This document shows, piece after piece, positions 5,702 through 16,056 of a stretch of DNA of 64,000 bases. Under the pieces are notes generated by a model that was given only the letters and a program-made list of their open reading frames with translations, was not told where the DNA came from and ran no database searches. The stretch comes from Thermococcus barossii (lineage in GTDB: Archaea > Methanobacteriota_B > Thermococci > Thermococcales > Thermococcaceae). The stretch spans positions 813,013-877,012 of the forward strand of contig NZ_CP015101.1 in assembly GCF_002214465.1 (NCBI RefSeq). The letters run 5' to 3'. The position numbers and the translations under genes are program-made. Each line of letters begins with the position of its first letter. Position 1 is the stretch's first letter.

Positions 5702-7285
5702 ATGGAGAGGAAGCTCACTGATTTCCTAGATGCCCCACCCAAGAAGGATAACGGTTTAACCCGTGAGGAGCTTGAGAGGGTTCTTAAGAAGGCCGCGGAT
5801 TTAATCAGAACAAGGGTTGATTACAAGTACATTCTCCTTCTGCTCTTCCTGAAGCGTCTGAGCGATGAGTGGGAGAAGGAGTTTGAGGAGTACGTTAGGA
5901 AGCTCATGAATGAAGGCCTGGACAGAAAGACCGCCGAGGAGCTTGCCCTCAAAGACAGGGAAGCGTACACAATTAGTTATCCACCCGAATACCTCTGGAG
6001 GAAGCTCCGCGAAAAGGACATCGAGAGTCTTCCTCAGAACCTTTCACAGGCCCTCAAGAAGCTCGCCGAGCTGAACCCCAACCTGAGGGGTATCGTTGAC
6101 CGCTTTGACTTCATGGAGTTCATGCTCCACAGGGACAACGCTGAAATACTCAGGCAGCTCTTCGAGCTTTTCAGCGGGCTTGACTTAAAGAACGCCTCCC
6201 CAGATGTTCTTGGCGATGCCTACGAGTGGATTCTGAGGTATTTCGCCCCGCAGAAAGCCAAAGAGGGCGAAGTTTATACCCCAAGGGAGGTCATCCGGCT
6301 TCTTGTTGAAATCCTCAAGCCGGAGCCGGGCGAGGAGGTTTACGATCCATCTATGGGTTCTGGCGGCATGCTTATTGGTGCCTACATTTACGTTAAGGAG
6401 CATCGCAGAGCGGATGAGGCTAAAAAGCTCTTCCTCTACGGCCAGGAGGTAAACCCGACCACCTACGCCTTGGCCGAGATGAACATGATACTCCACGGTA
6501 TTAAGTCGCCGAAGCTTGCCGTCGGTGATACACTTCTCAGGCCAGCCTTTAAGGAGGGCGAAAGGCTCAAGCGCTTCGATGTGGTTATAGCCAACCCTCC
6601 GTGGAACCAAGACGGTTACGGTGAGGCGACCCTTAAGAAGGCCGAGTTCAAGGAGGAGCGCTTTAAGTACGGTTATCCTCCGAACAACTCGGCCGACTGG
6701 GCGTGGATACAGCACATGCTCGCGAGTGCCAAAGATAATGGAAGGGTTGGCATCGTCATAGACAACGGCGCGCTCTTCCGCGGTGGGGCTGAAAAGAAGA
6801 TAAGGGCGAAGATACTCAAGGACGACCTGCTTGAGGCCGTTATCCTGCTCCCTGAAAAGCTCTTCTACAACACCGGCGCGCCGGGGGCTATAATGATATT
6901 CAACAGGAACAAGCCCGATGACAGGAAGGGGAAAGTCCTCTTCATCAACGCATCCCAGGAATATGAAAAGCATCCCGAGGTAAGGAAGCTCAACCGCCTC
7001 GGTGAGGAGCACATAAGGAAAATCGTTGATGCGTTTGAGAAGTTTGAGGACGTTGATGGCTTTGCCCGCGTCGTTGACCTCGACGAGATAAAGGAGAACG
7101 ACTACAACCTCAACGTCACCCTCTACGTCTTCTCGATGGAGGAAGAGGAGGAGATTGACGTTAAGGCCGAGTGGGAGGAGCTGAGAAGGATAAACGAGGA
7201 GCTTGCCGAGGTTGACGAGAAGATTGAGGGCTATCTGAGGGAGCTGGGACATGACTGTGTTAATACTACTGTCAGCAATAAGTAA
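5702..7285 (+). CDS. hsdM: Type I restriction-modification DNA methyltransferase subunit
   Basis: A 527-residue N6-adenine methyltransferase subunit. An N-terminal helical HsdM_N domain (DLIRTRVDYKYILLLLFLKRLSDEW) is followed by SAM motif I DPSMGSGGMLIGAY (about residue 214) and the catalytic motif IV NPPW (about 298). The C-terminus carries a predicted coiled coil. With HsdS it forms the M2S modification complex, and with HsdR the full restriction complex. The last dozen codons (GHDCVNTTVSNK) are AT-rich and unlike the usual HsdM end. The coupled hsdS gene is not next; a two-gene cassette intervenes, suggesting an insertion junction at about 7250-7290. Confidence 0.92.
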   Translation: MERKLTDFLDAPPKKDNGLTREELERVLKKAADLIRTRVDYKYILLLLFLKRLSDEWEKEFEEYVRKLMNEGLDRKTAEELALKDREAYTISYPPEYLWRKLREKDIESLPQNLSQALKKLAELNPNLRGIVDRFDFMEFMLHRDNAEILRQLFELFSGLDLKNASPDVLGDAYEWILRYFAPQKAKEGEVYTPREVIRLLVEILKPEPGEEVYDPSMGSGGMLIGAYIYVKEHRRADEAKKLFLYGQEVNPTTYALAEMNMILHGIKSPKLAVGDTLLRPAFKEGERLKRFDVVIANPPWNQDGYGEATLKKAEFKEERFKYGYPPNNSADWAWIQHMLASAKDNGRVGIVIDNGALFRGGAEKKIRAKILKDDLLEAVILLPEKLFYNTGAPGAIMIFNRNKPDDRKGKVLFINASQEYEKHPEVRKLNRLGEEHIRKIVDAFEKFEDVDGFARVVDLDEIKENDYNLNVTLYVFSMEEEEEIDVKAEWEELRRINEELAEVDEKIEGYLRELGHDCVNTTVSNK

Positions 7286-7290
7286 AGATT

Positions 7291-7343
7291 TTAAGCTTAA
7301 GTTTATAAGTTAAAATATCCCAACACTCCAAAGTACGGGGGGA
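7291..7343 (+). promoter_or_regulatory. Independent promoter of the cassette inside the R-M operon
   Basis: A perfect palindrome TTAAGCTTAA (7291-7300) abuts the TATA-like GTTTATAAGT (7301-7310), and GGGGGGAT (7337-7343) lies 4 bases before the ATG at 7348. The cassette can therefore be transcribed separately from hsdM. The palindrome may be an operator (inference). Confidence 0.5.
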
Positions 7344-7347
7344 TAGT

Positions 7348-9207
7348 ATGAATAACATTTTGATGAAAGTCTATTATACCCCAGCTAACGTTAAAGATGA
7401 TCCCGATAGGGTAAACATTATCGTAGTAACTGACGAAGACGATAAAGAAAAGATTGACAATAGAATCAGAAGGTACTGTGCGCAGAAGAAAAAGCCTTTA
7501 GTGTATAAGTATGATGAGACTGGAATCTCAGAATATCCCCCTCTTGCAAAAATCAAAGATTTCCCCAATCAGCTCCTCAAATCCTCATTAAAAGAAAAAG
7601 ATGAGATTAAAGTAGTAAAAGATATGTTTGAAACATTACGCAAGTTCTTATACACATCTGCTAAACACCAAACTAGGTACTTGGGGATGATAATAACAGA
7701 AGAATATGTTTTTTTATATCATTATATTCCTAAACCCGCAGTAACATTTGAAGGAGATAGTATCAAAGAATTCATAAAATATTTTGATGAAAGCACTATA
7801 AACTGGTTTATTTTTTATACTACTGGGAGTAATATAACTTCATTAATTTCTAACAATACCAAAGGTAATTCTTATTTTGAATTCAATGACAGTGATAATG
7901 TTATATATGCTCATGCAAAGCAAGGAAATTCTGGACTATCTGTAATTATAGATAGAGACATTGAATATGAGCAAAATGGGGAAGTGCTTTTTAGAGTCGG
8001 ATATAAACCTAATACGGATATTGTACTTGATACCTCTGCAGATGCCATTGAGGATGAACTTTTTAACAACAATAACCCTATAGTAGTTAATTTAGATAAC
8101 GGTATAGTAACAATTGAAGGATTTTCAGCACCATTAACTATCAAGGAAGTTAAAGTTGGAACGGATACTTATACAAAAGAACATTTTGAAGTTGCTAAGC
8201 ACCATATCACTTACAAAAGGTTGCACATAGAAGAAATTTTCGAGAGAATTAAATTCTATTTAAAGAAGTTAGATCCTATTGAAATTATAGATACACCTGG
8301 AGGACTTAAATTTATATACGAAGCTAAAGTTTCCCAGAAAGATAGAGAGCCTAAAAAGTATGAGATGAAAAAGTCTGCAATAATTTCCTATCCTAGAGAC
8401 ACTAAACTCAAACCAGGAAAAACGCTGTACTATATATTTCCCGGTCGGAGAAAAAAGAGCAATTACACAGAACTCGTTCAGACAATTTCTAATGATCTAT
8501 CCGCCCATTGTAATGTGGACATCGTTGAAATTTCCAGCTTCAAACATACCTATCAGTTGTTAGAAATTGGGAGGATATCCCTCTTCGTGAGAATAAAAGA
8601 CGAAGAATCAAAATTAGCTAAGAGAATTGCAACTCACATTAACAGAATAGTGAGTTCACTGGATCAAAACAAAACCCCCTCAAATTTATTATATAAGAGG
8701 CTTTTGAGTATTATTGGCCTAATTGAAATTTCTAGACTGCTAGTTTCAGCTAAACTTAAAGAGATTTTATCACTTTCCGCCAAACAAGCAATTGCTCAAA
8801 TATTGAAAAATGAATATGGATCTGGCCCAAGCATGGCAATTAGAGAACTTGACAAACTTGGAGTAGACTTAAAGGCAGGCATAAGGCGAGATAATCAAAA
8901 GGGGTTATTTGACTCATCGCCTTCGAAATTTGCAGAAAAGATCAAGGAGAAAATGAAAAGAAGAGAGGATATCGTTGTATATCTCATTGGCATAAATGAA
9001 GATACAAAAGACTTTAGTCCAGTACCTCTTAACAAGGTAAGAGACGAATTCATAACCTCTGCTAAAGAAAAGATTGAAGAGGATAGTACCTGGCGTGTCA
9101 TCGAATTAACCCCTATCCCTCTAAACGAGAGGGAGGGAGTATTACTGCTAATCGCTATGAGACAACAGGGACAAGTGAGCCCAGATGAACGCCAATACCA
9201 TCATTAG
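7348..9207 (+). CDS. 619-residue protein of unknown function, first gene of the hsdM-hsdS cassette
   Basis: A soluble, AT-rich-encoded protein that I do not recognise. The N-terminal 150 residues are alpha/beta (VYYTPANVKDDPDRVNIIVV, RYLGMIITEEYVFLYHYIP), the middle is beta-rich with acidic loops, and the last 200 residues are helical (LLYKRLLSIIGLIEISRLLV, AKQAIAQILKNEYGSG). No Walker, HNH, PD-(D/E)XK or transmembrane motif is evident. Codon use (ATA, AAA, TTT, third-position A/T) is far from the flanking chromosome, a sign of transfer. It has its own promoter and its 3' end overlaps the PIN-membrane gene by 23 bases, implying coupled translation. A sensor or partner for that gene is inferred. 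Confidence 0.75.
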   Translation: MNNILMKVYYTPANVKDDPDRVNIIVVTDEDDKEKIDNRIRRYCAQKKKPLVYKYDETGISEYPPLAKIKDFPNQLLKSSLKEKDEIKVVKDMFETLRKFLYTSAKHQTRYLGMIITEEYVFLYHYIPKPAVTFEGDSIKEFIKYFDESTINWFIFYTTGSNITSLISNNTKGNSYFEFNDSDNVIYAHAKQGNSGLSVIIDRDIEYEQNGEVLFRVGYKPNTDIVLDTSADAIEDELFNNNNPIVVNLDNGIVTIEGFSAPLTIKEVKVGTDTYTKEHFEVAKHHITYKRLHIEEIFERIKFYLKKLDPIEIIDTPGGLKFIYEAKVSQKDREPKKYEMKKSAIISYPRDTKLKPGKTLYYIFPGRRKKSNYTELVQTISNDLSAHCNVDIVEISSFKHTYQLLEIGRISLFVRIKDEESKLAKRIATHINRIVSSLDQNKTPSNLLYKRLLSIIGLIEISRLLVSAKLKEILSLSAKQAIAQILKNEYGSGPSMAIRELDKLGVDLKAGIRRDNQKGLFDSSPSKFAEKIKEKMKRREDIVVYLIGINEDTKDFSPVPLNKVRDEFITSAKEKIEEDSTWRVIELTPIPLNEREGVLLLIAMRQQGQVSPDERQYHH

Positions 9208-10270
9208 CATATCTAGAATACCCTTTGAGAACATATATGAACCTCCGGAGCTAAAATACATACTGAATAATTTCTTGAATGATCTTCCGCCGGGTATTTT
9301 AGAGCTTGTTAAACAGTTTGCAGAACACCTTCTTGTGAACATAACTGGAATTCAGGGCACGCTAGAGCTTTCCATTGTTGTTGATGCAAATCAAGTAATA
9401 TCCCAAGCAATTAACTACATCCGAGATGGTAGATTGCCCCTCATTATTAAACTATCTAGAAGCCCCTTTGTTAAGCTATATACCCCTCCATCCATCCGTG
9501 AGGAAACTCTAAACGATGAAAGAAAGCTAGAGAAAATCTCAAAGAAGAAGGGAATCCCAGTTGAAGCACTCAAGAGCGCCATTGAGGAAATTCTAGAGCA
9601 CATTACCTTTAAAGTGCCTGAGGGATATGAAGAATATAAAAAAGCTATGGAATTAGTAGGTGAGCGAGACCCCAAAGACGTGGACTATGTTTGGTTGTAC
9701 TTCTCAATAAACGCCAACGCTATCGTTTCATCAGACAAGGACATAACTGAGACTACAATCAAAACCTGGAAAAATATGGGGCCGCTAAAACACGTTGAAG
9801 TTATCCTCCGGAAAGGCTCGCTTTCTTTTATTGTTTTCTCGCTGGGATGGAGTGCCATCTTGGATTTTCTGTTTAAGATAATTCTGGCCATAGTCAGTAC
9901 AATTTTAGGAATGTTAAAAGTTATGTGGGAAGGCGTAAAGAGTGTTATCGCATGGATTGATAAGGGTATCCAAAATCTATCGGAAACTCAAGCATTGATC
10001 CTCTTCATGGCTCTTGGAGCTATCTTGTATCGCTTTGGCAGAGAAATTAGAGAGTGGATAGAGAATTTGGTAAATAGTGTTATCGAATTCTTAAAGTCCA
10101 TCAAGGACTTTATTTTGGGTCTTTTGGAGATAGCTCTAAACAACCCCTTAGCCAAGGCCCTAAAAAGCCTGATCGAATATTCTGCGATTTTGACCGAACT
10201 CTACAAAGAGATTAACCTTAAGGACATTGAGGAAAGTGTCATTAAAGTGGGTGGTTCCAATGCAAGCTAA
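9185..10270 (+). CDS. PIN-domain nuclease fused to a membrane segment
   Basis: A 361-residue protein. Residues about 62-190 show the PIN ribonuclease layout: D67 in SIVVDANQ, E106 in PPSIREE, D162/D165/D167 in [10 protein letters not shown], and the terminal strand motif [10 protein letters not shown] (D184, D186). Residues about 212-247 and 270-284 are strongly hydrophobic and probably span or anchor in the membrane, followed by amphipathic helices ([20 protein letters not shown]). The gene overlaps the preceding gene by 23 bases and hsdS by 11, so it is co-translated with both. AT-rich. Inferred role: a membrane-tethered RNase effector; no VapB-type antitoxin is visible next to it. Confidence 0.72.
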
Positions 10271-11561
10271 AACCAAGTTCAAGAAAACCCCAATCGGCGA
10301 GATTCCCAAGGATTGGAAAGTTGTGAGAGTTCGGGAGATCTTTGATGTAAAGACTGGAACAACTCCCTCAACAAAACAAGCGGACTATTGGGAAAATGGG
10401 GAGATAAACTGGATAACCCCAACTGACTTGAGCAAACTAAAGGATAATATTTACATTGAAGGTAGCGAAAGAAAAATTACCAAAAGAGCGCTCGAAGATT
10501 ACAATCTAAATCTTCTCCCCAAAGGCTCACTTATATTGTCAACAAGGGCCCCAGTGGGTTATGTGGCTGTTCTTAAAGAAGAGGCCACTTTTAATCAGGG
10601 ATGCAAAGGACTTGTTCCCAAGAATAGGAGCAAAATCATTCCAGAATTTTATGCATACTATTTTAAGTTCAAGCGACAATACTTAGAAAGTTTAAGTGGG
10701 GGAAGTACCTTCAAGGAACTTGCTAAGGCCATGCTTGAACACTTCTTAATTCCTCTTCCACCCCTCCCCGAGCAGAAGAAAATCGCCGAGATATTGAGAA
10801 CCGTTGATGAAGCCATCGAGAAGACCGACGAGGCAATTGAGAAGACGGAGCGGCTAAAGAAGGGCCTGATGGGGAGACTTTTAACGAAGGGCATCGGACA
10901 CGAGCGGTTCAAGAAGACCGAGCTGGGCGAGATCCCGGAGGAGTGGAGGGTTGTTAGACTTGGGGAGATTGCTGATCTAAAAAGTGGAGGTACTCCAAGC
11001 AGGAAGAAACCTGAATACTGGGAAAACGGGACAATTCCATGGGTAAAATCTGGAGAGCTAAATGATGGGATAATTGTTGAAACAGAAGAGAAGATCACAG
11101 AAAAAGCTGTTAGAGAATCCAGTGCCAAAATCTTTCCAGAAGGGACTTTGTTGTTCGCATTGTACGGGAAAGGAACAGTAGGCAAAACTGCCATTTTGGG
11201 TATAGATGCTGCCACAAACCAAGCAGTATGCGGCATTTTCCCAAAAAACAATGCATTTTTCCCAAGATTCATGCAGTACTATTTAATTCACAGGAGAGAG
11301 CCAATACTTACGCAATACGTCAATCCGAGCAGTGATGTTGGTAGAACTAATATATACATATCTTCGTTAGCATTATTAAAAATCCCTCTCCCACTACTCT
11401 CCGAACAGAAGCAGATCGCCGAAATCCTCTCCACCGTTGACAGAAAGCTCGAACTCCTGAGGAAGCGCAGGGAGAAGCTTGAAAAGGTGAAGCGCGGGCT
11501 GATGAAAGACCTGCTGACGGGAAGGAGGAGGATAAGTATTACAATCAAAAAGTATAAATAA
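10260..11561 (+). CDS. hsdS: Type I restriction-modification specificity subunit
   Basis: A 433-residue specificity subunit built of two target-recognition repeats. Each begins with near-identical [13 protein letters not shown] / [16 protein letters not shown] and a DYWENG or EYWENG segment, and each ends in a coiled-coil spacer ([19 protein letters not shown] and [18 protein letters not shown]). The recognition halves are AT-rich and variable, the spacers GC-rich and conserved, as expected for exchangeable TRDs. The ATG at 10260 is preceded by GTGGGTGGTT and overlaps the end of the PIN gene. The extreme C-terminus ([12 protein letters not shown]) is atypical. Confidence 0.9.
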
Positions 11562-11697
11562 CCTTTTGTCTTGAATATTAACATCCCGGTGGGTCTCCTG
11601 CTCCTGATGACCTCGGGAACCGTCAGCCCCGACATGATTTCAGCAGTCGTTGGAGTGATTGACATGGTGGTTCGAGCAACTTCAAGGTTCCCGAGAT

Positions 11698-11824
11698 GGG
11701 GGGCGGCCCTCCTCCGGGTTTCTGGGGGCGACGGAAGGAAGGAGCTGGAGGCTCGGGGGTAGAGGCTCGGGAGGGCCACCCCTAGGAGGGCGCGGTGATT
11801 GGGGTTCGAATCCCCACGCCCCCC
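11698..11824 (+). other. GC-rich structured block with a tRNA-like 3' end
   Basis: Between AT-rich genes lies a block of about 250 bases of high GC. It can form a near-perfect 15-bp stem (11699-11713 with about 11770-11784, one mismatch) around a 56-base loop. The last 25 bases look like a tRNA T-arm plus acceptor strand: TGGGG TTCGAAT CCCCA (11800-11816) then CGCCCCCC (11817-11824), which can pair with GGGGGGCG at 11698-11705. I could not fit a D-arm or anticodon arm, so it is not an intact tRNA. It may be a tRNA-derived attachment remnant or an undescribed structured RNA. The remainder of 11562-11861 shows no convincing gene. Confidence 0.4.
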
Positions 11825-11861
11825 AAGCTTTAACGTTCTTTCTGTTTGGAGGCTGGTCCAG

Positions 11862-13034
11862 ATGGTCGAGACTCCAGAGTGGGATACATTGGTAAAACTG
11901 ACCAAAAATGGATCCCTCCCTTTAGTAGCACTTTCTTATTTTACTGCTATTTATGCCGCTAGTAGATTGTGCAATGATATCAAATGTTTAGGAATCGCCT
12001 TTATCATATTTACTCTCGGAGTTGCATTAGTTATTTGGTTAATGACAAGATATTCTCAAGTAAACGCCGAGGTAAATCGTGAAAAAACAAAACAAATAAC
12101 AACAAAAATTATAGAAAAACACTTTTCTCCACTAATTTTGAATTTCTTTAGAGTTCTTGAGCATAGAGGTGTTTTAACTCTATCTGAGATTGAAAAACGA
12201 CTATTTGACAATCTCTCGCTGGCATTTTTGATAATAGAACGTGGTGAATCACTAGAAAAAACAGATAGAAGATTGAAATATATCATTAGCAACATTCTTG
12301 AACAAAGAAATCCAACACAATACAGGCGATTTCCTGGCTTTTCTACTCTTTTTAGGCACTTTATGCTTTCAGTAGTTTCAGAGTGGGAGACTATAGACAA
12401 AGTCATCCCATTTAACCTTGGTCCCGGATTTTCGCTATTTCTCGTGATTCCTCGAAAGCATTTCAAAAACTTGGAAAACAAAATCATAGAAGAGTACAGA
12501 AACTATGTTAGCCATTTATATGAAAGAGTTCAAAATGACCCAAATATAGAAGAAACTCACAAAAGGATATTTACCGAATGGTTTAATGAATTCTCACCTC
12601 CCTCTAACCCAATTATCATTGTTTCCTATCCATATCAGACGACAATTGATATGCTCTTAGAACGGCTTCCAGTAGCAAGTGGAGTAACAGGGGAGTACAT
12701 TAAATTCGTCCTTGAGTCAAAAATACTTAAACAAAGCTTGGACATTGGAAATATCAAACTGGCGTACTTATTTGAAGCTGTTGGGTATAATAAAAGGATA
12801 GTAGATAAACTTATCAAATTCGATAAAAGACTCAAAATAAAGCTCGGTAATGGTCAACAGATAACTCTAACGGAGTTCCTGGGTCTATCAAATCCATACC
12901 ATCGCCTTTTAACTTCAGTACAATCCATAGATCCACAGTTATACAATGAAATAACCACCAATGAGGGATCTCTCACTAATCTTGAGAGGTTAATTAACGA
13001 TTTACGAGTGGCTATGTATGGGATACCACCTTGA
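11862..13034 (+). CDS. Membrane-anchored protein of unknown function inside the R-M locus
   Basis: A 390-residue protein with two N-terminal transmembrane helices (about residues 19-35 and 42-61: GSLPLVALSYFTAIYAAS and LGIAFIIFTLGVALVIWL). A cytoplasmic helical body follows (KQITTKIIEKHFSPLIL, HRGVLTLSEIEKRLF). No catalytic motif recognised. The ATG at 11862 is preceded by GGAGG with 9-base spacing; an upstream in-frame start would translate the tRNA-like block and is rejected. Strongly AT-rich, unlike hsdR downstream, hence probably acquired. Position between hsdS and hsdR suggests a defence-related passenger (inference). Confidence 0.65.
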   Translation: MVETPEWDTLVKLTKNGSLPLVALSYFTAIYAASRLCNDIKCLGIAFIIFTLGVALVIWLMTRYSQVNAEVNREKTKQITTKIIEKHFSPLILNFFRVLEHRGVLTLSEIEKRLFDNLSLAFLIIERGESLEKTDRRLKYIISNILEQRNPTQYRRFPGFSTLFRHFMLSVVSEWETIDKVIPFNLGPGFSLFLVIPRKHFKNLENKIIEEYRNYVSHLYERVQNDPNIEETHKRIFTEWFNEFSPPSNPIIIVSYPYQTTIDMLLERLPVASGVTGEYIKFVLESKILKQSLDIGNIKLAYLFEAVGYNKRIVDKLIKFDKRLKIKLGNGQQITLTEFLGLSNPYHRLLTSVQSIDPQLYNEITTNEGSLTNLERLINDLRVAMYGIPP

Positions 13035-13086: not shown

Positions 13087-13105
13087 ACGCTAACAGGTGA
13101 CCCCC

Positions 13106-13669
13106 ATGCCCGCTCAAACCCCCGAATACCTCCAGTGTGAGAAGCCCATCATCGAGAGGCTTGAGAAAAGGAGCTGGACTTACAGGAGGGGCATCGAGGT
13201 TCTCGGAGACGAGAACGAGCCCCTCCTAATCTCAAAGCTAAAGAATGCGATAGTTAGGATAAATGGAGTCAGCGAGAGGGAAGCGGAGGAGGCAATCAAC
13301 CTCCTCAAGGCGAGTCCCTTCGGCGTTGAAGGTTCCCGCAGGGTTCTCGACTATCTCAAGAACGGCGTTCCCGTGAAGGATGAAGAAACCGGTGAGCCTA
13401 GGAGGCTTATGCTCATCGACTACGAAAACCTCGAAAACAACGAGTTCCTCGTTGCCAACCAGGTTGGCTATCCGTTTAAGACCAAGATACCCGACCTAAT
13501 CCTCTACGTCAACGGCATCCCGCTGGTCATCGTCGAGTGCAAAAGGCTGGACGTGAGCTGGAAAAAAGCATACAAGCAGATTAAGGACTACGAGAAGGAG
13601 ATGCCCGAGCTCTTCAAATATATTCAGATGGCGTTGCCGTCGGGGATAAACCCGTCTATTTCCCCATAG
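13106..13669 (+). pseudogene. hsdR: Type I restriction endonuclease subunit, N-terminal nuclease part (frameshifted)
   Basis: Encodes the N-terminal part of HsdR with the PD-(D/E)XK nuclease core (IPDLILYVNGIPLVIVECKR: catalytic D and ExK). The frame is right up to PELFKY at about 13621, then runs into unrelated residues (IQMALPSGINPSISP) and stops at 13669. The other frame continues as SDGVAVGDKPVYFPIVPW, the expected HsdR sequence. Removing one AT from the TATAT at 13619-13623 restores a single frame, so a dinucleotide duplication is the simplest cause. GGTGA precedes the ATG at 13106. Confidence 0.8.
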
Positions 13670-16056
13670 TGCCGTGGCTCAGCAGTGTTCCGGTCTATCA
13701 ATGGAAGGGCGAGAGCTTTGATGAGCTGGACAACCTGGTTGAGCTTTTAAAACCTGAGACCCTCCTCGACGTTCTCCGTTACTTCACCTTCTACCGCGAG
13801 AGCGGTGGAGCCTTTACCAAGGTTCTGCCGAGGTACATGCAGTACCGGGCGGTTAGGGAGATAGTGAGCATCGCTCTGGCCTACGCGAGGGGCGAGACCG
13901 AAAGAAACAGGGGCTTGATCTGGCACTGGCAGGGAAGCGGGAAGACGCTGACCATGATATTCTCCGCCTATAAAATCAAGCGCCTGCTTGGCAACCCCAC
14001 AATTTTCTTCGTCGTTGACAGGAAGGAACTTGAGAGACAGCTGAGCGACGAGCTTAAAGCCGTGGGGCTGAGCTTTGAAGTCATAGATTCAATCGAGAAG
14101 CTCAAGGAAGTCCTAACCCACGCCGATGGAAAGAGGGGAACGTTCATCACGCTCATTCACAAGTTCCGCGCCGAGGACCTCAATGACGTGCTGGAGGGGC
14201 TCAAGAGGGAAAGCCGGAGAAGAAAGACGATAATGAACCGCAGGGACGTCGTGGCTCTCATAGACGAAGGCCACAGAACCCAGTACGGCGAGCTTGCTTC
14301 GACTATGCGCTCGATACTCAAGAGCGCGTCCTTCTTCGCCTTTACCGGAACCCCAATAGCAAAGAAAGGGCGCGACACCTACGCCACCTTCGGCTATAAG
14401 GACAGGCCTTATCTCGACAGGTACTTCATAACGCAGTCCATAGATGACGGCTTTACTGTGAAGATAGCCTACCAGGCGAGGCTTGAGGAGGACGTTCACC
14501 TAAAGAGGGAGCTCCTTGAGGCATTTCTCTCATCGAAGCTGGAGGAAATCCCAGAGGAGTACCGCGGAAGGGTAGAGGAGAAGCTCAAGAAGAGGCTCAA
14601 CGCGATAAAGGTATTTCTGAAGAACCCGAAGAGGATCGAAATGATAGCCCAGGACATAGCAAAGCACTATAAGGAGAGCGTGGAGCCATTCAAAGCAATG
14701 GTCGTCGCCGTTGATAGGGAGTCCTGCGTCCTATACAAGCGCGCCCTCGACAGGTATTTGCCAAGGGAGTACACCGAGGTCGTGATGACGTTCAACCGGG
14801 ACGACAGCGAGGTTATCAAGGGATATCAAAAAGAGCTTGAAGAGCGTTTCCCAGGAAAGGACATGGCCGAAATCCGCGAGAGAATTCGTGAGGATTTCAG
14901 GAACAAGGAGACTCCAAAAATCCTGATAGTTACCGATATGCTCCTCACGGGCTTTGACGCCCCGATCCTTCAAACCATGTATCTGGACAAGCCGCTCAAG
15001 GAGCACAGGCTCCTTCAGGCAATAGCGAGGACCAACAGGCCCTTCATCAAGAACGGCGAAAACATCAAGCCCTTCGGCCTCGTTGTAGATTACGTGGGGG
15101 TATTCAAGGAGTTGAAGAGAGCGCTGGAAATCTACGATGAAGTTGATATCGAAGGGGCCGCCTACAGCGTCGAAGAGATAAAGGAAGAGCTCAGGAAAAA
15201 GATCGCCAAGGCTATGGGGTACTTTGATGGTCTTGAGCCGAGAAGAGATAGGGAGACGATAATGAACGCAGTCGAAACACTGTTCAGAAACAACAAAGGC
15301 GAGGAGTTCGGGAGGCTGTACCGGGAGATAAGGCACCACTACAAGCTCCTCAGGGAGGACAGAGATGAGTTCAGGGAGGCATTCAAATGGCTCACGGAAG
15401 TCTACTATGCATACAGAGCGAAGGTTGATGGTGTTCCACCGGAGGTCGAACTCAAAGCCGACGAATTCTTCAGGGAGGCCCTCAAGTTCATACACGAGAC
15501 AGTGGACATAGAGGAGATAAAGACTGACTTTCCAATAATTGAACTTGACGAAGAGTTCCTCAAGAAAGTAATGAGGGAGAGGGATAAGCGAAAGGCATTT
15601 ACTAACCTCCTATTCTCGGTCAGACACTACGTAAACACCCACAAGGGGCCTTTAACGGAGGATCTAGTTGAGCAGGTAGAGAGGATAATCGAAGCCTGGA
15701 GGCACAAGAAGGAAGAAATCGAGAAGCTCTATGAGGAGCTCCTTGGAATAGCACAGGAAATAGAAAAGCGCTCGCAGGAGCAGAGAAAGCTCGGTTTGAA
15801 CGAGCTCGAATACGCCCTTCTGATGGTGCTCAAGAAGCACGTAAAGACCAATACTACCGAGCTGATCAAAGGGGTCAGAAAGTTGCTCAAGGAGACCGAG
15901 GGGCTTAGGTTTCCCCGTTGGAGGGAGAAAACTGAGGTCGTCAGCGAAGTCTCGCGGAAAATTATGCTCTTCATTGTAAGGGAATATAAGGAGGAATGCG
16001 ACGACATCATCAAGACGCGTAACGAGCTCCTAGAGGTGCTCAAAAGGTGGGGATAG
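13669..16056 (+). pseudogene. hsdR: Type I restriction endonuclease subunit, helicase/translocase part (downstream of frameshift)
   Basis: A 795-codon frame carrying the motor and C-terminal domains of HsdR. Walker A WQGSGKTLTM is near residue 88, the DEGH box is in ALIDEGHRTQ, SF2 motif III is FAFTGTP, and TDMLLTGFDAP and IARTNRP represent motifs V and VI. A helical C-terminal region follows. It is the continuation of the preceding fragment; its apparent GTG start at 13669 is just an internal valine codon of intact hsdR. Alone it has no nuclease domain, so restriction should be off unless the shift is corrected by slippage, polymerase error or reversion. The 3' end overlaps the metallopeptidase gene by 10 bases. 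Confidence 0.85.

Follow-up and report, generated by a model that had tools for sequence, protein, structure and literature searches.

Organization of the type I restriction-modification locus

The window, the whole 64,000-nucleotide stretch of Thermococcus barossii DNA analysed here, contains a type I restriction-modification (R-M) operon with two additional genes, termed X and PIN-TM, between hsdM and hsdS. Its features are as follows.

5702-7285 (+): hsdM, type I methyltransferase subunit (N6_Mtase and HsdM_N; Pfam PF02384, E=1.3e-117; PF12161, E=1.5e-16), left border of the slot
7291-7345 (+): AT-rich gap with a palindrome, TATA-like TTTATAA and a purine-rich stretch before the ATG, possible promoter (read directly; palindrome by script)
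7348-9207 (+): X, 619 aa, member of an archaeal family of ~550-620 aa (profile search, tblastn, alignment)
8845-9174 (+): probable AlbA_2/Schlafen-like domain at the C-terminus of X, residues ~500-609 (hhalign, Pfam)
9185-10270 (+): PIN-TM, 361 aa, PIN_2 ribonuclease-type domain and hydrophobic C-terminal half (Pfam PF10130, E=3.9e-11; homologues)
9377-9775 (+): PIN domain of PIN-TM, residues 65-197 (Pfam; conserved acids)
9857-9934 (+): hydrophobic segment of PIN-TM, about residues 225-250, candidate membrane anchor (Kyte-Doolittle)
10260-11561 (+): hsdS, specificity subunit with two target-recognition domains (TRDs), ATG at 10260, right border of the slot (PF01420, E=5.4e-81)
11862-13034 (+): TM411, hydrophobic N-terminus, within the hsdS to hsdR interval (homologues at hsdS-hsdR in G023, G043, G083 and G084)
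13097-16056 (+): hsdR, split into an HSDR_N nuclease part of 190 aa and a motor part of 795 aa (Pfam; alignment with five intact relatives)

The open reading frames of hsdM, X, PIN-TM and hsdS lie on the same strand, with overlaps of 23 bases between X and PIN-TM and 11 bases between PIN-TM and hsdS, and the GC contents of X (34%) and PIN-TM (40%) are low against those of hsdM (52%) and the window (54%). These values agree with a preliminary description of the locus, which had reported two AT-rich, overlapping genes between hsdM and hsdS, the second reaching 11 bases into hsdS. The same description had assigned the two genes their own promoter: the ten-base palindrome TTAAGCTTAA is present at 7291-7300 with TTTATAA directly 3' of it, and the purine-rich GGGGGGAT precedes the start ATG of X at 7348, a stretch that is plausible, on sequence grounds, as an archaeal promoter. 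A type I R-M system requires intact HsdM, HsdS and HsdR; in the window HsdM and HsdS are intact and hsdR is split, owing to a one-base deletion near 13630 (13629-13630) relative to its relatives, in all five of which (5/5 aligned) the missing base is present. The split may mean that restriction has truly been lost, that two functional parts are made from the overlapping stop and start, or that the sequence contains an error.

The PIN-TM protein

PIN-TM matches the PIN_2 family (PF10130) over residues 65-197 with a score of 43.7 bits against the curated cut-off of 22.4. In an alignment of five homologues, including one from Methanocaldococcus jannaschii, the acidic residues Asp67, Glu107, Asp162, Asp165, Asp184, and Asp186 are invariant, while Asp167 is replaced by Pro in M. 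jannaschii. The active site proposed in the preliminary description is thus retained for Asp67, Asp162, Asp165, Asp184, and Asp186; its Glu106 is really Glu107 in the conserved register, and its Asp167 varies. The PIN reading had been made to depend on the acids being kept in homologues, as these six are across all five. In a Kyte-Doolittle profile (19-residue window), one strong membrane segment is found at about residues 225-243 (maximum, 2.21), followed by perhaps one or two weaker hydrophobic segments up to about residue 282, so that the fusion of a PIN domain to hydrophobic membrane segments described earlier is upheld, with one clear segment.

Among the 115 Thermococci genomes surveyed, full-length PIN-TM occurs in four: the window genome, G075 (77% identity), G067 (77%), and G105 (55%). 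As judged by dN/dS values of 0.14-0.17, the gene is under purifying selection, and its recurrence with such values shows that it is not a chance open reading frame. The protein is mosaic between its catalytic and hydrophobic halves, residues 61-205 being 92% identical to G075 and residues 206-361 being 88% identical to G067. A more distant homologue (36%) is encoded on the M. jannaschii plasmid pDSM2661_1, about 1.5 kb downstream of hsdR, and a scan of genome contigs gave a single match, the Thermococcus metagenome-assembled genome (MAG) that is listed here as G067. No relatives of PIN-TM or X were found among viral contigs, neither protein had a PADLOC match, and sequence searches of the PDB gave nothing convincing. 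The predicted structures are of low confidence (mean pLDDT, 41.5 for PIN-TM from two sequences and 39.4 for X from a single sequence). The RNase activity, membrane location, antiviral role, and trigger that may be ascribed to PIN-TM are putative and are read from its sequence.

The X family

The window X protein has no significant Pfam match, and the family was analysed through an alignment of ten relatives. The full form found in R-M slots is encoded in G000 (the window genome), G023, G040, and G055 among the 115 Thermococci genomes, with more distant forms elsewhere. Its C-terminus aligned with AlbA_2 domains in hhalign (P=5.6e-4; score, 28.1, against ≤12.6 in 20 column shuffles) and shares with the Schlafen AlbA_2 proteins (PF04326) the motif order EFK ... 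GI/V..D, whereas the N-terminal ~450 residues resemble nothing tested and the Pfam match to SLFN_AlbA_2 stays below the cut-off (best E=0.005, in two of the ten members, the window protein not among them). A weak match to SLFN14 (E=0.7) with a four-row profile was gone with the ten-row profile. The statistical support from these comparisons is modest, and the C-terminus of X is probably an AlbA_2/Schlafen-like, nucleic-acid-binding domain. Kinship of X with KwaB was ruled out (hhalign P=0.35). Haloarchaeal relatives of X (25% and 23% identical, with 91-95% of the query aligned) lie outside R-M loci and have no RNase neighbours.

X-family genes were also observed in another setting. X comes after the gene of a large type IIG-like methyltransferase in G050 (T. 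profundus plasmid NZ_CP014863), G071, and G084, and AbiEi/AbiEii and an HKD-SNF2 helicase are encoded close to X in G050, G071, and G102. The combination of a type IIG-like methyltransferase with an X-family protein recurs in Thermococcales (L069, 7865-18411; L070; L071; L072) and may represent an undescribed defence system.

A variable slot between hsdM and hsdS

In all 17 scorable loci, from 16 genomes, whose HsdM is 82-95% identical to that of the window, hsdM and hsdS are separated by coding sequence. The borders of this slot are conserved (hsdM ending in GGGGTATTGA and hsdS beginning with TTCAAGAAAACCCCAATCGGCGAGATTCC), the DNA between them is variable, and all of the cargo is on the operon strand and tightly packed. 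The cargo, with PIN and HEPN assignments made by Pfam, is as follows.

Window (G000): X + PIN-TM
G075: PIN-TM
G105: PIN-TM + TM117 + PIN223
G036, G072: small basic protein + PIN204 + TM117
G053: small basic protein + PIN208 + 60 aa TM protein
G043: small basic protein + truncated PIN
G103: TM116 + TM117
G023: X558 + 156 aa protein + HEPN498
G040: X568
G054: HEPN537
G078: 762 aa protein (first contig); PIN238 (second contig)
G104: 595 aa protein
G083, G107, G089: 351 aa multi-TM protein (TM351) or a 346 aa relative

The HEPN proteins of G023 and G054 were assigned from weak matches (to DUF4145 with E about 0.001 and to HEPN_Swt1 with E=0.005) together with an RNKFIH/RNDLIH motif. All four Thermococcales copies of PIN-TM are at the hsdM-hsdS junction, between remnants of the two genes in G067; PIN-TM thus recurs inside type I R-M loci. 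Many of the loci occupy one chromosomal site, with a 633 aa aldehyde-ferredoxin-oxidoreductase-like gene upstream and an EF-1alpha-like 430 aa gene downstream, and the cargo has therefore been exchanged in place. The exchange is independent of HsdS specificity, as judged from sequence identities: G072 and G053 have a TRD1 about 90% identical to that of the window genome next to different cargo, and G075 shares PIN-TM with the window genome while both TRDs are about 30% identical.

Other hsdM lineages were compared with the window lineage. In 13 of their loci hsdM and hsdS are directly adjacent, and hsdS exchange alone thus makes no slot. In three loci of a 48-50% sister lineage (G048, G022, and G036), hsdM is separated from hsdS by genes for KwaA (PADLOC, E=2e-18) and a KwaB-like protein (Pfam, E=7e-7) (L037, 4016-5754; L040, 3500-5719; L041, 3707-5926), joined in two of the three (G022 and G036) by a 156 aa TM117-family protein; a slot equivalent to that of the window thus accepts known defence genes. 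Among the other lineages, G055 has X552 and G090 a TM protein with a DUF5677-like protein, and in G024 a Fic gene follows hsdM on a contig that ends ahead of any hsdS. Archaeal classes beyond Thermococci were sampled through a plasmid collection, in which a TM117-family gene was found at the hsdM-hsdS junction of M. jannaschii pDSM2661_1 (blastp, 4e-12 in a two-sequence comparison); none of the TM117 relatives on haloarchaeal plasmids was in an R-M locus.

A candidate tRNA-like RNA downstream of hsdS

The hsdS to hsdR interval is a second variable region, occupied in the surveyed loci by TM411, nucleotidyltransferase and HEPN-like pairs, a VapBC-like PIN155, and multi-TM proteins. In the window it contains a G+C-rich (64%) element at 11580-11826 (+), present in one copy per genome, whose tRNA-like part spans 11698-11826. 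DNA comparison detects the element in six of the 115 Thermococci genomes when the window copy is used and in six when a divergent copy is used, always directly downstream of hsdS or within the hsdS-hsdR interval with G060 as the sole exception. The 3' part can adopt a tRNA-like fold with an 8-bp acceptor-like helix, a long P2 stem, and the T-arm GGGGTTCGAATCCCC. The acceptor-like helix covaries (GGGGGGCG/CGCCCCCC, TGGGGGCG/CGCCCCCA, and GGGCGGAG/CTCCGCCC), with changes on both sides at positions 1, 4, and 7, and the element is 94% identical to that of G023, compared with 71% for hsdR DNA. No Rfam family reached its gathering threshold for the element, which is a candidate for a new R-M-linked RNA.

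A hydrophobic small open reading frame of 57 codons (VGLLLLMTSGTVSPDMISAVVGVIDMVV...) occupies 11589-11762 (+), its stop lying inside the tRNA-like part, and similar hydrophobic small frames occur upstream of the element in the other genomes. In G060 (L103, 7096-8236), the chromosomal site that corresponds to the window has lost hsdM, hsdS, and hsdR apart from a 36-base stretch similar to the hsdS 3' end; it still carries a multi-TM protein (85% identical to L028, 5815-6675) as well as the tRNA-like element (95% identical to G053). In G105, a relative of this multi-TM protein weakly matches Hfq close to the C-terminus (E=0.07), which makes a membrane RNA-binding protein beside the tRNA-like RNA possible.

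Probable origin and role of the slot genes

We consider it probable that the hsdM-hsdS junction serves as a fixed slot for the exchange in place of accessory genes, most of them for RNase-type or membrane proteins, and that the slot of the window holds two independently acquired genes. The slot genes would resemble second-line antiviral effectors and would be replaced in an operon that retains its hsdM and hsdR. The likeliest role of PIN-TM is that of an RNase at the membrane that harms or arrests the infected cell; X would be a large protein whose C-terminal domain is probably AlbA_2/Schlafen-like and nucleic-acid-binding. By riding with the R-M operon, the cargo would gain common transcription and spread and would serve as a backup against viruses that evade restriction; it would not be held silent by HsdM and HsdS, an independence from the R-M complex that we infer. 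Since X, TM117, TM351, and the 595 and 762 aa proteins belong to families without known function, they are better called putative effectors. The presence of haloarchaeal X genes outside R-M loci counts against the notion of cargo riding with R-M.

The preliminary description had instead regarded the two genes as one system, to be supported by recurrence of the pair in type I R-M loci of other genomes, and had proposed a guard that is silent as long as the methylase/specificity complex is intact. X and PIN-TM forming a dedicated toxin-antitoxin or sensor-effector pair is the least probable of the readings considered here: their genes overlap, and the slot of G023, with an X relative and a HEPN protein, would suit a sensor role for X alongside RNase effectors that can be swapped, but among the 115 Thermococci genomes the two co-occur in the window genome only, PIN-TM being found without X in G075, G105, and G067, X alone filling the slot in G040 and G055, and the haloarchaeal X genes having no RNase neighbours. 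The pair is real, yet it is one cargo set among many and not a new two-gene system. Silencing of PIN-TM, with or without X, by bound HsdM/HsdS and its release when a virus inhibits restriction, in the manner of PrrC, is better founded but still unlikely. Such a guard would follow the genomic logic of PrrC/EcoprrI and the published immunity-suicide coupling hypothesis; a small antitoxin gene beside PIN-TM is absent, every Thermococcales PIN-TM is at the hsdM-hsdS junction, and through the 11-base overlap with hsdS its translation may be coupled. Against this, PIN-TM is intact in G067, where it is flanked by an hsdM of 49 codons and by hsdS remnants and where no other hsdM or hsdS copy was found in the genome, a draft MAG of about 210 contigs. 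This speaks against strict silencing by HsdM and HsdS, although the R-M genes may have decayed so lately that dependence would not yet show, or PIN-TM may be unexpressed there. In addition, very different cargo types, the Kiwa pair included, occupy such slots, PIN-TM accompanies HsdS of unrelated specificity, and a PrrC-type NTPase sensor domain was not found by Pfam in PIN-TM or X. The comparison gives the guard no direct support.

The junction might also be a passive hot spot that recombines through hsdS exchange, in which genes lodge without a functional tie to R-M or defence. The sharp borders next to the strongly recombining hsdS and the AT-rich, foreign-looking cargo, part of it without known function, would suit such a site, which we nevertheless regard as quite improbable: the recognisable cargo consists nearly entirely of nuclease-type, defence-type, or membrane proteins on the operon strand only, purifying selection acts on PIN-TM, cargo and hsdS recognition domains exchange independently, and the 13 loci of other lineages have hsdM and hsdS adjacent. 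Exchangeable cargo, our preferred reading, is a better fit than a co-evolved inhibitor complex to the reassortment of TRDs and cargo, the mosaicism of PIN-TM, and the state of G067. A more elaborate scheme, in which R-M operons would be effector platforms with HsdM/HsdS sensing, RNase and membrane effectors as an exchangeable cassette, and the conserved tRNA-like RNA after hsdS helping to control them, seems very unlikely, suggestive as a tRNA-like RNA beside exchangeable RNases may be.

Relation to described systems

The preliminary description knew of no system with this architecture. However, R-M loci have been proposed to carry toxins that lack antitoxins and are inhibited by R-M components, with repeated displacement of one toxin by another noted as well (Makarova et al. 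2012, PMC3506569), and many R-M-linked HEPN families were listed together with the PrrC model by Anantharaman et al. 2013 (PMC3710099), so that both the coupling of a toxin to R-M (PrrC/EcoprrI) and toxin displacement had already been described. With toxin swapping in R-M loci proposed in 2012, the concept is known and the archaeal variant is new; in the open-licence literature, we found no description of such a fixed slot in archaea, of the architecture of PIN-TM, of the X family, or of a Kiwa pair in the slot. Like PrrC/EcoprrI of the Escherichia coli type I system, PIN-TM is a ribonuclease-type gene with no obvious antitoxin inside an hsd locus (hsdM and hsdS flank it in the window, G075, and G105, and their remnants do so in G067). 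PrrC, however, combines an ABC-NTPase with a HEPN anticodon nuclease, whereas PIN-TM is a PIN_2 domain with a hydrophobic tail, Pfam finding PIN_2 only in PIN-TM and nothing in X; unlike PrrC/EcoprrI, the archaeal junction is a fixed slot with many unrelated cargo families, and the gene outlasts the loss of hsdM and hsdS. PIN-TM shares the PIN fold and conserved acids with the VapC-type toxins of VapBC, but is extended by 150 residues of hydrophobic sequence and lacks a VapB-like partner, its neighbours being X (619 aa) or hsdM and hsdS; the PIN204 and PIN208 cargo (G036, G072, and G053), with a small basic protein upstream, looks more VapBC-like. As to Kiwa, a Kiwa-like pair fills the slot of a related type I lineage, whereas the window has neither KwaA nor KwaB.

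The slot would thus be an archaeal case of the toxin exchange proposed in 2012, in which one operon accommodates at one junction many unrelated cargo families independently of specificity. It could be mined directly for new antiviral effectors, with PIN-TM, X, TM117, and TM351 as candidates, and a strain that has naturally lost R-M but retains an intact PIN-TM makes silencing of the toxin by R-M testable.
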